A stretch of 47,850 bases of DNA from a virus. Position numbers and translations under genes: made by a program. Of this stretch, positions 5,472 to 46,653 are shown one piece after another. The notes beneath the pieces are model-generated. The model had not been told where the DNA came from. It made no database searches and saw only the letters and a list, made by a program, of their open reading frames with translations. The stretch covers positions 1-47,850 of the IMG/VR virus record IMGVR_UViG_3300005663_000071. One strand, 5' to 3'. How positions within the stretch are numbered: the stretch's first letter is position 1; each line of letters opens with the position of its first letter.

Positions 5472-5781
5472 CGACTTAACACAATTCGTAAGAGAGGGAT
5501 GGGCACTGTCAGCAATAAGACAGATAAAAACGGACATTGTTGCTTGGGCCTATCTCGTGAGCACAAGTTACGACCAGGGTGATATGACCGATTTGGAATT
5601 CAGATTGTTTCACGGGACTCCCGGCCAAACCAGACGACACGCAGCACAGCAGGCACCACTTCGCGGCAACGGGCTATTCAGCAATCAACAGCAAGCACGA
5701 CCTCCTATGCCGCAACCAGTACCCCGTCCCCGCAAAACCGTAGAGTCCAGAGTAGTAGAACCGAGGATGTTAAATGCCTAA
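5464..5781 (+). CDS. Hypothetical protein upstream of portal
   Basis: 105 residues: a helical N-terminal half (FVREGWALSAIRQIKTDIVAW) and a Pro/Gln/Arg-rich disordered tail. The first codons, ATGCCTAACGA, are identical to the first codons of the portal gene, and both genes begin inside an 8-base overlap with the preceding stop. This suggests duplication of a coupling junction. Possibly a head-assembly helper, by position only. Confidence 0.6.
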   Translation: MPNDLTQFVREGWALSAIRQIKTDIVAWAYLVSTSYDQGDMTDLEFRLFHGTPGQTRRHAAQQAPLRGNGLFSNQQQARPPMPQPVPRPRKTVESRVVEPRMLNA

Positions 5782-7765
5782 CGATGCAACAACTAAATCT
5801 GAATTTCTGGACGTTTACGAAATAAACGACCAAGCGTGGAAGCCGTTTAATGAGCAGGCGTGTTTAGACAATGACTATGCGCTTTTGGCGCAGCATTCCA
5901 TCGAGGAAGTTGATCGCGCCAACCAGCAAGGCAGGGTGTTGCATACTATTGATAAGATCGGTCGGCAGATCAACTTACTTCACGGCTACGAGATACGCAA
6001 CCGACATATTTTGAAGATAGGGCCACAGGGTAACTTCGACGCCGCAGAGGATCAGGCTTGTAATCAGCATACAGGCGTCATAATGAGTTTAATGGCGAGG
6101 CATGGCGGGTACAATGTATTGAGTGAAGCGTTTCGGTGGGGTACGCTTGTTCAGGGTTCCAACCTCATAGAGTCATGGCGCGACAGGGATGGGTTGATAC
6201 AATACGGTCGCTTGGGGTGGAATCAGTTCTTGTTAGATCATGGACTTACCAAATCCGACCTCAGCGACTGTATGGACATTTTGACAGGCCAGTGGATCTC
6301 GACCAATAAAGCGAAGATGTTAGTACCTACCGCCGCCGACGAGATCGAGGATATCAGACCGCTGACACAGACAAGCCGTTGGCCGTTCCAAGGTTCGCCT
6401 GCAATGAATAATAAGGCCGGAAAACGAATGTTCGAGCAGTGGTGGCATCGAACCACCGAAGAGGTATCTGTTGTTCAGCATCGTATCACCGGCCAGAAAA
6501 TGACGTTTGAGCAGTTTGTCAACGAGAATGCCGACGGTGATAAGAACCTGGCGAACAGGTTCATACAAGAGTTCAGAATGCCTAATGGCACACCGTTCCT
6601 TGTGAAGTTCAGGGAGATCAAGGATAAGGTCGAGTTAAAGATATTCGTGGACGATGAATTAGTATGGACCGGCGATAACCCGATGAAGATCAGGGACTTT
6701 AACTATTCGTGGGTGCATGGCCAGTGGTGCCCCGAATGTCCGCGCACTGAGTTGAAGCTGCAATCGTTCGTTCGTGGCCGCCGTGACCCGCAGCGGATGT
6801 ATAACCGCAAGATCAATCAGGCGATGGACATTATCGAGAGCCAGATACAGGGCTTGCGGATCGTGCGAAGTAGTAAGCTGATGAATCCCGAAGATGCTTA
6901 TTTAGCTGGGCAGGGTATCGTGTTGCAGGTTGATGAAAACGCTGACGATACGGTTCTGGACGAAATATTCAAGCAAGTCAAAGCATCTGAAGTTCCCCAA
7001 TCCGTCTTTACTATGCTTGCGTTGATAGATAAGGATCAGACTGACGGCGGCGGTTTGAATCAGGAGATATTCGGAACTGACGATAAGAACATAGAGATTT
7101 CAGGTGTGCTATCGAAGTTCAGAACCGGACAAGCATTGACCGGTCAGGGATGGATGTTCCAGAATCTCAGAGAGGCTAAACGTGACTTTGGCAAAAAGCA
7201 GGTTCAGATGGTACAGCTTAACTATAAACCGCAGAGGGTTAAGCAGATAATCAACGAAGAACCGGTGCCGGGCTTTTATAGCGACGATCTGACAAGGTTC
7301 GATTGCAATCCGGTTGAAGGGCAACTGACCGATAGCCAGCAGAGCATGTATTATCAGGAGATGAAAGAATTACTCAAGACTTTCCCCGAATTGTTCAATG
7401 GTGTTATTACAGCAGATATGATCGTCAAGGCTGCTCCGATGCAGTTTAAGACTCCGACATTGCAAGCTATCCAACGTGCTTCGCAACAGAAACAACAGTT
7501 GCAGAAACAGCAGACACAGCAGGTACTTACTGACCAGCAATTGCAACAGGCGGTTACTCAGTTACAGTTAGCGCAGGGCGTCGAAAGTTTGGCAGACGCA
7601 GCGGAGAAACGATCCGAGATACCTCTTAATCGCGCAAAGACGTTATCAGAGATAAATAAGAATCGAGATAGTACGGAACTTGGCGCATTGAAGGAATTAG
7701 TACGGCTTGAGATAGCAGCCGATAAGAATAGACAATTACAAGGAGCGATTTCAAATCAACCTTAA
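5774..7765 (+). CDS. P22-like portal protein
   Basis: 663 residues, the size of P22-type portals. The N-terminal core has IDKIGRQINLLHGYEIRNR, the central region RDPQRMYNRKINQAMDIIESQ, and the C-terminal part is Gln-rich and coiled-coil (QQKQQLQKQQTQQ, ~residues 570-610), as expected for the barrel of long portals. It forms the dodecameric vertex ring through which TerL packages DNA. It follows terL and precedes the scaffold and coat genes. Confidence 0.88.
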   Translation: MPNDATTKSEFLDVYEINDQAWKPFNEQACLDNDYALLAQHSIEEVDRANQQGRVLHTIDKIGRQINLLHGYEIRNRHILKIGPQGNFDAAEDQACNQHTGVIMSLMARHGGYNVLSEAFRWGTLVQGSNLIESWRDRDGLIQYGRLGWNQFLLDHGLTKSDLSDCMDILTGQWISTNKAKMLVPTAADEIEDIRPLTQTSRWPFQGSPAMNNKAGKRMFEQWWHRTTEEVSVVQHRITGQKMTFEQFVNENADGDKNLANRFIQEFRMPNGTPFLVKFREIKDKVELKIFVDDELVWTGDNPMKIRDFNYSWVHGQWCPECPRTELKLQSFVRGRRDPQRMYNRKINQAMDIIESQIQGLRIVRSSKLMNPEDAYLAGQGIVLQVDENADDTVLDEIFKQVKASEVPQSVFTMLALIDKDQTDGGGLNQEIFGTDDKNIEISGVLSKFRTGQALTGQGWMFQNLREAKRDFGKKQVQMVQLNYKPQRVKQIINEEPVPGFYSDDLTRFDCNPVEGQLTDSQQSMYYQEMKELLKTFPELFNGVITADMIVKAAPMQFKTPTLQAIQRASQQKQQLQKQQTQQVLTDQQLQQAVTQLQLAQGVESLADAAEKRSEIPLNRAKTLSEINKNRDSTELGALKELVRLEIAADKNRQLQGAISNQP

Positions 7766-30223: not shown

Positions 30224-30243
30224 AAAAACAATAATTTTTTGAA
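30204..30243 (+). repeat. Direct repeat, left copy (40 bp)
   Basis: From CCCAAAGTGG to TTTTTTGAA. It matches 31065-31104 at 39 of 40 bases (C at 30229, T at 31090). The two copies bracket the DUF4116-like gene exactly from stop region to stop region. Confidence 0.9.
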
Positions 30244-30256
30244 ATGGAGCAGAAAA

Positions 30257-31084
30257 ATGACACTAAATGAATTTTTGCAAGAAGTAGGCGGCGATGAGAG
30301 CCAAATAATCTGCTATGTAGCCGAAGAAGCCTTGGAAGCCGTCAAAGAAGATGGCTACGCACTCCAGTACGTCAAAGAGCAGACAGAGCAGGTTTGCTTG
30401 GAAGCCGTCAAACGCAATGGCTACGCACTCCAGTACGTCAAAGAGCAGACAGAGCAGGTTTGCTTGGAAGCCGTCAAACGCAATGGCTACGCACTCCAGT
30501 ACGTCAAAGAGCAGACAGAGCAGGTTTGCTTGGAAGCCGTCAAACGCAATGGCTACGCACTCCGGTACGTCAAAGAGCAGACAGAGCAGGTTTGCTTGGA
30601 AGCCGTCAAACGCAATGGCTACGCACTCCAGTACGTCAAAGAGCAGACAGAGCAGGTTTGCTTGGAAGCCGTCAAACGCAATGGCGACGCACTCCGGTAC
30701 GTCAAAGAGCAGACAGAGCAGGTTTGCTTGGAAGCCGTCAAACGCAATGGCTACGCACTCCAGTACGTCAAAGAGCAGACAGAGCAGGTTTGCTTGGAAG
30801 CCGTCAAACGCAATGGCTACGCACTCCGGTACGTCAAAGAGCAGACAGAGCAGGTTTGCTTGGAAGCCGTCAAACGCAATGGCTACGCACTCCAGTACGT
30901 CAAAGAGCAGACAGAGCAGGTTTGCTTGGAAGCCGTCAAACGCAATGGCTACGCACTCCGGTACGTCAAAGAGCAGACAGAGCAGGTTTGCTTGGAAGCC
31001 GTCAAAGAAGATGGCTACGCACTCCAGTACGTCAGCAAAAAAGTCTTTTCGGTAGAAATTCAGGCCCAAAGTGGAAGTCAATAG
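30257..31084 (+). CDS. DUF4116-like repeat protein
   Basis: 275 residues from the ATG at 30257 (GGAG 8 bases upstream). After ~25 residues (LNEFLQEVGGDESQ) come eleven 22-residue units with consensus EAVKRNGYALQYVKEQTEQVCL; the first and last units read EAVKEDG. Units alternate Gln/Arg in ALQYV/ALRYV and one has DAL for YAL. The pattern matches DUF4116-type helical repeats known from bacteria and giant viruses, where they may mediate protein-protein contact. DNA units are 66 bp and nearly identical, so copy number probably changes readily. Function unknown. Confidence 0.75.
   Translation: MTLNEFLQEVGGDESQIICYVAEEALEAVKEDGYALQYVKEQTEQVCLEAVKRNGYALQYVKEQTEQVCLEAVKRNGYALQYVKEQTEQVCLEAVKRNGYALRYVKEQTEQVCLEAVKRNGYALQYVKEQTEQVCLEAVKRNGDALRYVKEQTEQVCLEAVKRNGYALQYVKEQTEQVCLEAVKRNGYALRYVKEQTEQVCLEAVKRNGYALQYVKEQTEQVCLEAVKRNGYALRYVKEQTEQVCLEAVKEDGYALQYVSKKVFSVEIQAQSGSQ
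30335..31034 (+). repeat. 66-bp tandem repeat array, 10.6 units
   Basis: Units start at 30335, 30401 and every 66 bases to 30995; the eleventh is partial. Almost all differences are CAG/CGG in the ALQ/ALR codon, one TAC/GAC and the KRN/KED edges. Two other plus frames and one minus frame are also free of stops throughout the array. Confidence 0.95.
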
Positions 31085-31104
31085 AAAAATAATAATTTTT
31101 TGAA
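31065..31104 (+). repeat. Direct repeat, right copy (40 bp)
   Basis: Matches 30204-30243 with one mismatch. It encodes the shared QSGSQ end of the DUF4116-like protein and the AT-rich spacer after it. Recombination between the copies would cleanly delete that gene. Confidence 0.9.
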
Positions 31105-42654: not shown

Positions 42655-43485
42655 GTGAATATCGGCCTTATGAACATTGAACCAAAGATACAGAACACCG
42701 CTTATATGCAAATTTCGTATCATCACAAGCTGAAAGGCGATACCGTCGAATGGTACGACCCAGCCAGTCAATACGATACGATCTATTGTTCAAGTCTGTT
42801 TCGGTTTACTGACAAGTCAGACGTGCCCACGCAAGCCCTGTGCGGCGGCACTGGCTTTGATCTCACAACTAAGCTACCGTTTGACTGCGAATTAGATTAC
42901 AGCATCTACCCAGAGTGTGACCGGTCTTTTGTGTGGTTCAGTAGAGGTTGTATACGAAACTGTGCTTTTTGCGTTGTCAGAGAAAAAGAGGGTGTTATAA
43001 AATCTGTTGATCCAAAAAATCTCAATCCCACCGGAAGCCATGTCGTTGTAATGGATAATAACTTTTTTGCAAACTCTAATTGGAAAAAGGCTTTATGGCA
43101 ATTATGGGAATGGGGGCAGCCAGTAGACTTTCAGGGCGTAGACGTGCGATTGTTGACCCATGAAATGTGTCAATTCCTTAAAGTTACGAGACGTTATAAA
43201 CAAATCAAGATTGCATGGGACGACCCACGCCAAAACCTTACAGGTGCGATCAGGGAATTATTGCGATATATAGCACCAAGTAATGTCATGTGTTACGTTT
43301 TAATCGGCCATAACTCGACCCTTGAGCAAGATATTTACCGTATAAAAAAGTTGCGCGAATTAAAAGTATCGCCTTATGTAATGTGCATGAATCGCCAAGA
43401 TAAGCACCAGAAGAAGTTTCAAAGATGGGTCAACGGTTTCGCTTTCAGGAATGTAAAATGGACAGCTTTTACAGCCCCCCAATAA
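42655..43485 (+). CDS. Phage radical SAM protein
   Basis: 276 residues, GTG start after GAGGTG. Iron-sulfur motif SRGCIRNCAFCVV (CxxxCxxC) near residue 97. The N-terminal segment (LMKIS-like YMQISYHHKLKGD, then YDTIYCSSLF) matches a recurrent phage radical SAM type. C-terminal region lacks a recognisable second cluster site. It probably performs radical chemistry on an unknown substrate, perhaps a nucleotide or tRNA. Overlaps the integrase gene end by 17 bases, converging. Confidence 0.8.
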   Translation: MNIGLMNIEPKIQNTAYMQISYHHKLKGDTVEWYDPASQYDTIYCSSLFRFTDKSDVPTQALCGGTGFDLTTKLPFDCELDYSIYPECDRSFVWFSRGCIRNCAFCVVREKEGVIKSVDPKNLNPTGSHVVVMDNNFFANSNWKKALWQLWEWGQPVDFQGVDVRLLTHEMCQFLKVTRRYKQIKIAWDDPRQNLTGAIRELLRYIAPSNVMCYVLIGHNSTLEQDIYRIKKLRELKVSPYVMCMNRQDKHQKKFQRWVNGFAFRNVKWTAFTAPQ

Positions 43486-44491
43486 CCTCATCAAGTTTAG
43501 AAACAACCCGATCTTCCGTTTCAATATTGACACCGATATACCTTTTGGTGGTCTTGAAGTTCTTATGTCCAAGATGTTCTTGAAGTACCGCAGAAGATTC
43601 CCCTTTATCAGCCAGCAATGACACCGACAGATTTCGCAGATAGTGAAAGTGGAATTTTGGTAAGCCTGCCTTTTTCCGGCTTTTTTCCCATTCTTGACGC
43701 ACTTTACCATCCCAAACATTGCTAAATAGGCGGGTGTTTTTGGGTGGGAGCGTCGAAATGTAATCAATTATCTTTTGTAAGGCTTTGTCACCGAGTCTTT
43801 TAGTGATTATTTCTCTGGTTTTGACTTCGTAGAGATAGACAATCCCAGTTTCAAGATCAATACGGCAGTCAGCATCGGGCAGCAGCTTGATACTCTCAAT
43901 AGCAGATCGCCGCACTCCGAGAGCAAGGGCAAGCACCATACGCGCGTAGAGCGAGGGGCAGGACTTTGCGTAGTTGAATAGGCTGATAAGCTGATCGGTG
44001 GTCGGTGGGATGAAAGGCCGCTTGATAGTTTTGAGCATTGTCCAAGTGATACTTTGGTTGTTGTAGTGATTCTTCACCAGCCAATTATGAAAAGCACGAA
44101 GATTCTCAAGGTCTTTGTTGACAGACCTATTGCCAACAGCTTTCTTGCGGATCCTGATATAAGACTCTATGTGCTGTTGGCAGAGTTGTTCTGTGTTCCC
44201 GATAGTCATAGCCTTATCGAATTGTGCAAAGGTGTTCTCGATTTGGAACCGCGTAGCGGCGGCGATGTCCTGAGCCTCTTTTGCAAGAAAGTATAAGTGG
44301 ATAGCATCAGCCCAACGCAAGCCGGTGACGCCTTGCCAGTTCTCGTAATTGAGTGTGTACGACATGAAGCACTTCCAGAGATTCGCTTCGCGTTTGCTGG
44401 GGAATGCTTTCGCGATTCGCTTGCCATGCATCCAATACTCACCATACCAGCGTTTCCGTCGCTCTCTGTACCATATACGAATTTTCTTCAT
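43469..44491 (-). CDS. int: Tyrosine integrase
   Basis: 340 residues. N-terminal arm-binding-like region (ARM-type: WYRERRKRWYGEYWMHGKR), core-binding domain with RFQIENTFAQFDKAM, and catalytic domain: GVRRSAIESI (Arg I), a beta-strand Lys in the VKTREIITKR region, HFHYLRNLSV (H-x-x-R) and HLGHKNFKTTKRYIG with the nucleophile Tyr. It should recombine the attP at about 45400 with a host tRNA-Thr gene. The nearest upstream promoter is 45258-45286. Confidence 0.92.
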   Translation of the reverse strand: MKKIRIWYRERRKRWYGEYWMHGKRIAKAFPSKREANLWKCFMSYTLNYENWQGVTGLRWADAIHLYFLAKEAQDIAAATRFQIENTFAQFDKAMTIGNTEQLCQQHIESYIRIRKKAVGNRSVNKDLENLRAFHNWLVKNHYNNQSITWTMLKTIKRPFIPPTTDQLISLFNYAKSCPSLYARMVLALALGVRRSAIESIKLLPDADCRIDLETGIVYLYEVKTREIITKRLGDKALQKIIDYISTLPPKNTRLFSNVWDGKVRQEWEKSRKKAGLPKFHFHYLRNLSVSLLADKGESSAVLQEHLGHKNFKTTKRYIGVNIETEDRVVSKLDEVIGGL

Positions 44492-44830
44492 TTATTCTGT
44501 GGCTTTTGGTAGTTCTATGGGCTGCCAGTGGGTGACTTCAAACAACCAAACGCCTGTCACGGGATTCACCCAGTAATTATTCCCGTTGTATTTACCGACA
44601 GCAAAGTCTAATGTGCATTGGTTAAATACTAAATATTTTCCGTTCACTTCCGGCATTGTCTCTGGCGTTACGCTTATCCACGGACTCGGACAGGCTTCAG
44701 TACCAGCCATAAATGCTTTCTCGCAACCTTTTCTTAGATCCCTCGCAATCGGGCCTCGCTCCATTCCTGACGGCAACGGATATTCTTTATTAAACCATAA
44801 CCCAAACGCCTGTTTCAGTTCTTCACTCAT
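44492..44830 (-). CDS. DUF551-like protein, copy 2
   Basis: 112 residues with SPWISVTPETMPEVNGKYLV and GVWLFEVTHWQPIELPK, the DUF551 signature. Its stop abuts the integrase start, so the two are co-transcribed. Similar to copy 1 at 42130-42441, mostly in the conserved SPWI-VTPETMP. N-terminal half is helical (EELKQAFGLWFNKEYP). Confidence 0.75.
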   Translation of the reverse strand: MSEELKQAFGLWFNKEYPLPSGMERGPIARDLRKGCEKAFMAGTEACPSPWISVTPETMPEVNGKYLVFNQCTLDFAVGKYNGNNYWVNPVTGVWLFEVTHWQPIELPKATE

Positions 44831-44857: not shown

Positions 44858-45139
44858 TTAGTTAAATTCGTGTTCTTCGCCCTCGCAGATTTCTCCATAC
44901 AGGTCCAGCTTTACAATTTCTAAGGCTCCAATAGCTTCGGCATTGTTTATATCGCCAGCGTCTTTATGTATTTTGATTACATTGGTGACTCTATCTACCA
45001 ATGCTTGTGCCCCGACGCTCTGGTTGCGATCCAAAAGTTCCTTGTAATCTGCGATCAATTCCCGGACATCTGGGCAATGACCTTTGTCGCCACCCAGAGC
45101 GTAAGCTATTTCTAATTTATTTAGTTTGTCCGCATCCAT
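44858..45139 (-). CDS. Hypothetical protein, first gene of the integrase operon
   Basis: 93 residues: helical and acidic (KLEIAYALGGDKGHCPDVRE, then LIADYKELLDRNQSVGAQ), ending GEICEGEEHEFN. The ATG has GGAAG 7 bases upstream. It lies between the structured leader and the DUF551-like gene. Unknown function; expected to share the leader-based regulation. Confidence 0.6.
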   Translation of the reverse strand: MDADKLNKLEIAYALGGDKGHCPDVRELIADYKELLDRNQSVGAQALVDRVTNVIKIHKDAGDINNAEAIGALEIVKLDLYGEICEGEEHEFN

Positions 45140-45162
45140 AATACACTTCCTTTCATAAAGAG

Positions 45163-45249
45163 AGACCGACCGAAGCTGCTATGCAGTGCGGGAGCGTTCC
45201 CGGAGTGCCTTCGGCCAGTCTCATGTAAGTTTGTTTGGTACTGCATAGC
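45163..45249 (-). ncRNA. Pseudoknot-capable 5' leader of the integrase operon
   Basis: On the minus strand the 5' end GCTATGCAGT (45249-45240) pairs with ACTGCATAGC (45187-45178), 10 bp. AGACTGGCCGAAG (45221-45209) pairs with CTTCGGTCGGTCT (45175-45163), 13 bp with two wobbles. The order is a-b-a'-b', so the two helices either form an H-type pseudoknot or exclude each other. A third hairpin CGGGA-ACGC-TCCCG lies between b and a'. The structure starts at the predicted transcription start and ends about 23 bases before the ATG at 45139. Confidence 0.7.
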
Positions 45250-45257
45250 ATATATAA

Positions 45258-45286
45258 ATAATACACTATAAAATCAAAAAGTGCAA
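45258..45286 (-). promoter_or_regulatory. Promoter of the integrase operon
   Basis: On the minus strand TTGCAC (45286-45281), 17-bp spacer and TATTAT (45263-45258). Transcription would begin near 45251, at the first base of the structured leader. Confidence 0.75.
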
Positions 45287-45303
45287 CAAAAAAATAAAAA
45301 AAA

Positions 45304-45537
45304 GATACCAGACAGATACCAGTAAACCGGACAGGTAGTGTATGGATTATGTTAAGTGCTGTAATCATAAAGGCTTATAAAAGCCAACGGTCGGAATCGA
45401 ACCGACAACCGCTGGTTTACAAAACCAGAGAGAGGGTATATTTTTTTATCAAAACCGCACTCACAATAAAAATAATGCGACATAGTGCGACAAACCCCGC
45501 CAAACTGCGACACTAAAAAGATACCAAACCGATACCA
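45304..45537. other. attP region with arm-site-like repeats
   Basis: Around the tRNA-derived core are repeats typical of integrase arm sites: GATACCA at 45304-45310, 45315-45321, 45520-45526 and 45531-45537, and TGCGACA at 45476-45482, 45486-45492 and 45506-45512. Having them on both sides of the core points to an unsplit attP. No gene is apparent in 45300-45590; this region together with the leader explains the gap. Confidence 0.6.
45383..45428 (-). other. attP core: 3' half of a tRNA-Thr(UGU) gene
   Basis: On the minus strand: anticodon arm CTGGTTTTGTAAACCAG (45428-45412, anticodon TGT), T arm GTCGG-TTCGATT-CCGAC (45406-45390) and acceptor end CGTTGGC (45389-45383). No 5' half (GCCAACG and D arm) is present upstream. 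The phage copy presumably restores the host tRNA gene after integration. Confidence 0.85.
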
Positions 45538-45538
45538 T

Positions 45539-45567
45539 TTGCTTTTATCGTGTTTGTGATGTATACT
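45539..45567 (+). promoter_or_regulatory. Rightward promoter after attP
   Basis: TTGCTT (45539-45544), 17-bp spacer, TATACT (45562-45567). Drives the small-gene run starting at 45605. The -35 side overlaps the last GATACCA arm-site-like repeat region, so integrase binding could affect transcription. Confidence 0.65.
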
Positions 45568-46409: not shown

Positions 46410-46436
46410 CCCAACCCCCAGAGGTAAAGACATAAG

Positions 46437-46630
46437 TAGTTTTTGCTCTTTATAACCGAATACCGGCTGGCCGATGTATACTCCTCCGAGTGCATTGTCA
46501 GCTTAACTGGCATTGACGTGCCCCCGGCAAGGTTGCTACGGGTGTCGTGACGGGCTGAAATGGGATACGACGACCCTACTGTGTAGGTGAGAGCGTTAAG
46601 AACATATTAAGCCCTTTGCCAGTATTTTTG
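46437..46630 (+). ncRNA. Structured non-coding RNA, copy B
   Basis: Shares TAGTTTTTGCTCTTTATAAC, ATACCGGCTGGCCGATGT, GCATTGTCAG and GTGTCGTGACGGG (46542-46554) with the RNA at 152-450, in the same order. Equivalent helices use different bases: ACTGGCA/TGCCAGT (46506-46512/46617-46623), and CCCG-GCAA-GG-TTGC-CGGG (46523-46542). The extra domain present in copy A is absent. Ends with TTTTT (46624-46628) after the closing helix, so it may self-terminate. Confidence 0.6.
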
Positions 46631-46653
46631 AACTATTAAGGAATATTTAATAC

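Follow-up and report, generated by a model that had tools for sequence, protein, structure and literature searches.

An interlocked RNA pseudoknot at the predicted start of a phage integrase operon and of other phage transcripts

The leader of the integrase operon

The window, by which we mean the whole 47.85-kb stretch of viral DNA analysed here, carries on its minus strand a leftward operon of three genes preceded by a structured leader and a phage attachment site. The first-pass annotation had placed the leader at the head of an integrase operon; the integrase gene comes third in it, after an orphan gene and a DUF551 gene. The features, with boxes, hairpin and Shine-Dalgarno read from the sequence, are:

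45384-45450, minus: attP core, the 3′ part of a tRNA-Thr(UGU) gene (cmscan), upstream of the leader
45281-45286, minus: predicted −35 box TTGCAC, 17 nt from the −10 box, fair consensus
45258-45263, minus: predicted −10 box TATTAT, 7 nt before strand a, placing +1 at about 45250
45240-45250, minus: strand a, the 5′ strand of helix a, at the 5′ end of the predicted transcript
45223-45239, minus: loop L1, 17 nt, A-rich and without G, ACCAAACAAACUUACAU
45209-45222, minus: strand b, the 5′ strand of helix b, paired in the three-way alignment
45188-45208, minus: loop L2, 21 nt, containing a small hairpin
45202-45189, minus: L2 hairpin CGGGA-ACGC-UCCCG, 5 bp, between b and a′, absent in homologue L062
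45177-45187, minus: strand a′, the 3′ strand of helix a, pairing with strand a in all three aligned homologues
45162-45175, minus: strand b′, the 3′ strand of helix b, one nucleotide downstream of a′
45154-45161, minus: U-rich tail UCUUUAUG, weak in the window, U7 in several relatives
45146-45153, minus: Shine-Dalgarno sequence AAAGGAAG
44858-45139, minus: operon gene 1, a 93-aa orphan without known family
44492-44830, minus: operon gene 2, a DUF551 protein
43469-44491, minus: operon gene 3, a tyrosine integrase (Phage_integrase 6.8e-16; PHROG integrase)

The attP region spans 45384-45540 plus 45299-45321, and its tRNA part scores 20.6 bits in cmscan, under the gathering score. GATACC/GGTATC direct repeats flank that part at 45299-45321 and 45515-45537, and TGCGACA repeats occur at 45472-45512; both resemble integrase/Xis arm sites. 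The same tRNA 3′ sequence is found in five Planctomycetota genomes, including members of the Phycisphaerae and Sedimentisphaerales, and this match suggests that the likely host of the window phage belongs to the Planctomycetota. The predicted promoter is located between attP and the leader, and would stay attached to int upon integration.

The leader RNA contains two interlocked helices in the order a-b-hairpin-a′-b′, as determined from the sequence and a stacking-energy scan. Specifically, helix a (UGCUAUGCAGU/ACUGCAUAGCA; 45250-45240 with 45187-45177) comprises 11 bp, Watson-Crick throughout, while helix b (GAGACUGGCCGAAG/CUUCGGUCGGUCUC; 45222-45209 with 45175-45162) comprises 14 bp, including two G·U pairs. 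The interlocked arrangement with a small hairpin between b and a′ had been recognised in the first-pass annotation, which gave the helices as 10 and 13 bp. It had also put the first strand at the predicted transcription start and the last strand just upstream of the ribosome site, in agreement with the 7-nt spacing from the −10 box to strand a and with the end of strand b′, which precedes the Shine-Dalgarno sequence by 8 nt and the ATG at 45139 by 22 nt. Neither helix a nor helix b sequesters the Shine-Dalgarno sequence. The window promoter (TTGCAC-17 nt-TATTAT) matches the consensus at only 8 of 12 positions, a fit equalled by 6% of random sites; homologues repeat the layout of promoter and strand a, with better promoters than the window's.

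The knot is the top interlocked pair on both strands of the window, with a stacking energy of −49.6 kcal/mol; the runner-up reaches −40.7 and lies at a terminator. None of 2000 dinucleotide shuffles of the leader matched the knot (best, −38.8). Interlocked helices are beyond ordinary folding programs; in the minimum-energy fold of the leader, helix b is drawn and helix a is missing.

A profile of 12 integrases led to L062 (G481), a virus record in which the integrase shares 48% identity with the window's and the int operon has an alignable leader upstream, sharing the 17-nt A-rich L1 and lacking the L2 hairpin. Between the two leaders, ten of the 25 pairs show two-sided changes and one is a non-pair, so that both helices are kept. 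When a covariance model was built from these two sequences, it retrieved one more copy (E 9e-9), in G010, a phage whose terminase and further structural proteins relate it to the window phage. The three-way alignment preserves pairing in 74 of its 75 pair cells and shows two-sided changes at 13 of the 25 pairs, a number equalled in none of 500 shuffles; the signal collapses once the pairing partners are slid. The idea of an RNA pseudoknot in the 5′ leader is therefore borne out by covariation: the helices are not lost in homologues, nor is the predicted transcription start downstream. We conclude that it is close to certain that a real pseudoknot structure stands at the predicted start of the integrase-operon mRNA.

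The G010 copy precedes no integrase; the genes behind it are an HNH-like one (so named by inspection), followed by YqaJ (PF09588) and ERF (PF04404). G481 and the window phage have essentially the integrase alone in common, indicating that the element also travels with the integrase module. Integrases of this type do not require the element, because an integrase relative, L078 (63% over a short segment), has an attP-like tRNA sequence and a leader without the knot. That attP-like sequence, upstream of the L078 integrase, is a tRNA-Arg(CCU) 3′ sequence. The L078 integrase itself (L078:3995-4222, G487) has its N-terminal part fused in frame to the last ~40 residues, which may reflect an internal deletion or an assembly artefact.

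A family of leaders found by shape

We scanned related phages with a search based on geometry only, blind to sequence and promoter. Three further elements were found, at −46 to −48 kcal/mol, in the terminase relatives G002, G003 and G007, giving six elements altogether at −46 to −50; the best control value is −39.7, and 12 shuffles, 9.6 Mb in all, produced nothing at or below −45. All six have a sigma70-type promoter with the −10 box ending 4-8 nt before strand a; the promoters, ignored in the scan, nevertheless fit at P 0.06 to 0.0004 each. A second scan, anchored on promoters and tolerating a broken helix b, yielded at least ten confident elements, at −43.6 to −56.5, in seven phage records (two each in G002, G007 and G010; one each in the window, G481, G003 and G011), most of which are relatives of the window phage. 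Twenty shuffles of 1.1 Mb gave none at −42 (best, −39.6), and 0.97 Mb of control loci gave no element (best, −33.8). The records are viral metagenome contigs, and the observed distribution is a lower bound. Sequence is alignable in three of the ten members, and the covariation comes from these three; the other seven share architecture only and rest on structure and promoter statistics.

The members share one anatomy, in the order promoter, strand a at the predicted +1, L1, b, L2, a′, b′, tail, Shine-Dalgarno and gene. With starts predicted from promoter position, strand a begins 4-9 nt past the −10 box in all ten. L1 is A/U-rich and 14-26 nt long throughout, L2 is 3-21 nt long with a hairpin inside it in some members, the linker between a′ and b′ is 0-1 nt in every case, and the two helices measure ~11-19 bp and 9-16 bp. 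An ORF starts 16-36 nt past the element in nine of ten, the sole exception being G002a, which has no gene close behind it. Helix sequences vary freely between members, and the divergent members share no loop or helix sequence. In all six members checked, the G·U pairs are on the gene-sense strand (the other strand would have A·C), which indicates that the object is RNA and not a DNA operator.

U-rich tails are a further common feature. Pooled over the ten elements, the tails contain 72 T of 100 (combined P 1.5e-12), and in eight of ten the tail follows a GC-rich stem in the manner of a terminator. The tail is weak in both integrase leaders, with 5 T of 10 in the window (UCUUUAUGAA; P 0.18) and 6 T of 10 in L062 (P 0.05). 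The ordinary terminators of the window phage carry U7, much stronger than the leader tail.

Integrase genes lie downstream of two of the ten elements, and the other eight head different transcripts. The downstream genes comprise the two int operons, the HNH-YqaJ-ERF set, a DnaD-like protein (named by eye, with no Pfam match), small ORFs before a GP88 gene, and other small ORFs; the first genes behind the elements differ, and those scanned matched no Pfam family above cut-off. Since the same knot heads at least nine other transcripts, it represents a type of leader RNA and not an integrase-specific switch, and the first-pass proposal of a lysogeny switch acting on integrase is unsupported. A leader next to an integrase should accordingly not be read as an integrase switch. 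Judged by sequence features, the element is a new type of phage 5′-leader RNA.

Because architecture is conserved and sequence is not, covariance and BLAST searches would largely miss the family; the geometry-plus-promoter scan does find these elements. Single-protein queries with the integrase and P0003 against viral and genome collections returned nothing, the phage and plasmid records searched held nothing useful, and no confirmed member came from the R1 and R2 searches, which covered genomes at order, class and phylum level. The exact inverted-repeat pattern matched four viral contigs, with helix b in none. In viral contigs, TGCTAYGCANNACNAAACAA occurs in the L062 phage and otherwise in unrelated phages without the knot, and the sole real match to the pattern AAACAA..TGSCCG..GCACT is the L062 phage. 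A BLASTN search of 397 Phycisphaerae-class genomes with the leader gave three weak matches in GC-rich, ORF-dense DNA that we judged to be chance. No comparable leader knot was found at remoter chromosomal integrases (L038-L058, L079-L107), and the matches in G250 and G453 (L131, L126) and L130 are without the knot.

Several loci were set aside. A candidate eleventh element on the minus strand of L007 (roughly 5678-5790 in reverse-complement numbering), with a 6-nt a′-b′ linker and a 35-nt L1 followed by a Shine-Dalgarno sequence and ATG, was not counted, its energy (−35.9) being inside the shuffle range by the strict rule. A covariance match of 23-25 bits in L014, L015 and L028 is an ordinary terminator without a or a′. 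At L014:3944-3993 and L028:7811-7860, this terminator includes a GGGGCACUUCUC stretch, with 12 nt identical to the L062 leader, and directly precedes a DnaB-like gene; it may be a degenerate relative of helix b lacking helix a. In G002, about 470 nt between two pseudoknot elements (L022:7290-7760) are apparently non-coding, with a repeated CTGCCGACCACCTTTTTAT segment.

Possible function and competing explanations

We tentatively propose a cis-acting leader in which the pseudoknot would seal the 5′ end of the transcript and, in most members, would be combined with early termination (attenuation), a reading that we favour over its rivals, at somewhat less than even odds. As a′ runs straight into b′, the two helices are proposed to stack end to end in a coaxial rod of ~23-33 bp; by helix geometry, L1 would span the full length of this rod, for which 14-26 nt should suffice, and the first nucleotide of the transcript would be buried at the rod joint, sealing the 5′ end. 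Helix b and the U tract would form an intrinsic-terminator-like hairpin inside the leader; where the U tract is strong, the combination has the typical features of such a terminator, and some of the transcripts would end at that point. Part of transcription would thus halt after ~75-115 nt to leave a small RNA with both ends protected, while the read-through fraction would yield an mRNA with a sealed 5′ end, the net role being that of an attenuation device heading early-type operons. Known intrinsic-terminator attenuators likewise have a GC-rich stem and U tract in a leader just before the Shine-Dalgarno sequence; the present family differs in being without an overlapping antiterminator and in having the transcript 5′ end pair inside the terminator loop. 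Counting against an attenuator, the loops exceed those of standard terminators in size. The window leader and the other integrase leader both have a weak U tract, and there a sealed 5′ end and partial pausing would be left; the window tail is so much weaker than the U7 of ordinary terminators that termination there may be poor, and the termination part of the model is weakest for this element.

In its fullest form, the proposal is of an undescribed family in which the 5′ end would lie enclosed midway along a coaxial pseudoknot rod doubling as a terminator hairpin, a self-sealing attenuator placed at one or two promoters per phage among Planctomycetota phages and partly carried as an exchangeable part of the integrase module; we regard this picture as possible, at somewhat less than even likelihood. 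If the mechanism is true, transcription start, RNA folding, termination and mRNA decay would be linked within ~90 nt, in a testable and portable control part.

Sealing of the 5′ end could also be the only function, with no unpaired 5′ nucleotide, pyrophosphohydrolase and 5′-end-dependent nucleases blocked, and a U tail that aids ribosome binding. Such a stabiliser fits the features common to all ten members, strand a at the predicted +1 and the 0-1-nt linker, and its shape-only role would be expected to let helix sequences vary as freely as they do. Furthermore, RppH-type enzymes require unpaired 5′ nucleotides, at least two for B. subtilis RppH, and 5′-terminal stem-loops stabilise the ompA and papA mRNAs (PMC3997798). 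The ompA and papA structures likewise stand at the extreme 5′ end with no unpaired leader nucleotide, but are simple hairpins, in contrast to the interlocked helices of the phage leaders. A plain 5′ hairpin would suffice for this purpose, however, and the U-rich tracts right after a GC-rich stem would be left unexplained; we consider stabilisation by itself unlikely, though far from negligible.

A free-standing, trans-acting small RNA of ~75-115 nt, made from a promoter of its own and ended by its own terminator, with the downstream gene reached by read-through, would explain why a single unit carries a promoter, a compact fold and a terminator-like end, and G002a, without a direct downstream gene, suits it better than it suits an attenuator. 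The placement of nine elements so shortly before an ORF start and the lack of a conserved loop sequence as shared target or protein site nevertheless make this explanation improbable.

A translational operator or riboswitch, in which binding of a phage protein or ligand to the pseudoknot would close or open the ribosome site, after the example of T4 gene 32, is suggested by the position of the element directly upstream of the Shine-Dalgarno sequence. L2 also shows weak complementarity to its own Shine-Dalgarno region (mean, −5.7 vs −4.2 kcal/mol shuffled; P 0.03), a signal that is marginal by permutation (rank 9 of 120) and of a kind that any pyrimidine-rich loop shows to some extent. The downstream genes differ, and conserved ligand-binding nucleotides were not found among the members; the ligand riboswitch raised in the first-pass annotation is disfavoured, as divergent members have no loop or helix sequence in common and no Rfam class matches. 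The pseudoknot of gene 32 in T4, T2 and RB69, also a phage 5′-leader structure whose helices stack coaxially ahead of the ribosome site, acts by binding its own gene product, and was described in a 2010 review as perhaps the sole viral pseudoknot in translational autoregulation (PMC3014915). The present family differs from it in helix lengths and connectivity, with helices of ~11-19 and 9-16 bp joined via a′-b′, an L3 near zero and a long L1, and also in its varying genes and commonly terminator-like tail. We regard an operator or riboswitch as quite improbable.

A very improbable alternative is a put-like antiterminator, in which the nascent RNA binds RNA polymerase so that later terminators are ignored, as with HK022 put and EAR. 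Those cis-acting RNAs head operons or early phage transcripts, and the element likewise stands at the very beginning of early-type phage and int transcripts; put acts as RNA with no protein factor (PMC11658703). By description, put and EAR have no known counterpart of the U tract that most members carry, which is unexpected straight behind such an RNA; moreover, the window operon has only three genes, with no terminator seen that would need bypass. A DNA-level operator or recombination arm site, with the inverted repeats binding repressor, Int or Xis, could be considered from the adjoining attP and the rather conserved strand a sequence among the three alignable members, but has almost no probability given the gene-sense G·U pairs, the covariation with G·U, the seven further members unrelated in sequence and mostly away from any attP, and the window's having near-matches only and no other repeat copies. 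We rejected an HDV-like self-cleaving ribozyme: that topology demands space for a catalytic segment between a′ and b′, where 1 nt leaves no room, and the promoter already sets the 5′ end.

Relation to known RNAs and other features of the window

The Rfam search proposed in the first-pass annotation was run and found no known family: the whole window gave no match among 4227 families at the gathering threshold, and six leaders at relaxed E gave nothing or weak sub-threshold matches to unrelated families. By context, the nearest known RNA is STAXI (RF01728), a pseudoknot occurring in two to three tandem copies in Enterobacteriales (PMC2864571). Both are pseudoknot RNAs of mobile elements, often by integrase and DNA-handling genes; the leader element differs in being single copy at the predicted +1, in phages probably of Planctomycetota, and the window leader has no Rfam match to STAXI at E up to 10 and no tandem repeat. 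The family is thus placed among the structured phage leader RNAs, as a new sort. Apart from riboswitches and ribosomal-protein leaders, such leaders in phages are to our knowledge poorly known, and next to nothing has been described from phages of Planctomycetota.

Elsewhere in the window, tandem repeats at 30239-31092 encode a repeated VKEQTEQVCLEAVKRNGYALQY protein and are open in several frames, on both strands simultaneously. A stretch of ~240 nt at 46410-46650, between two small genes, has no convincing ORF and no Rfam match, and is possibly another structured RNA.
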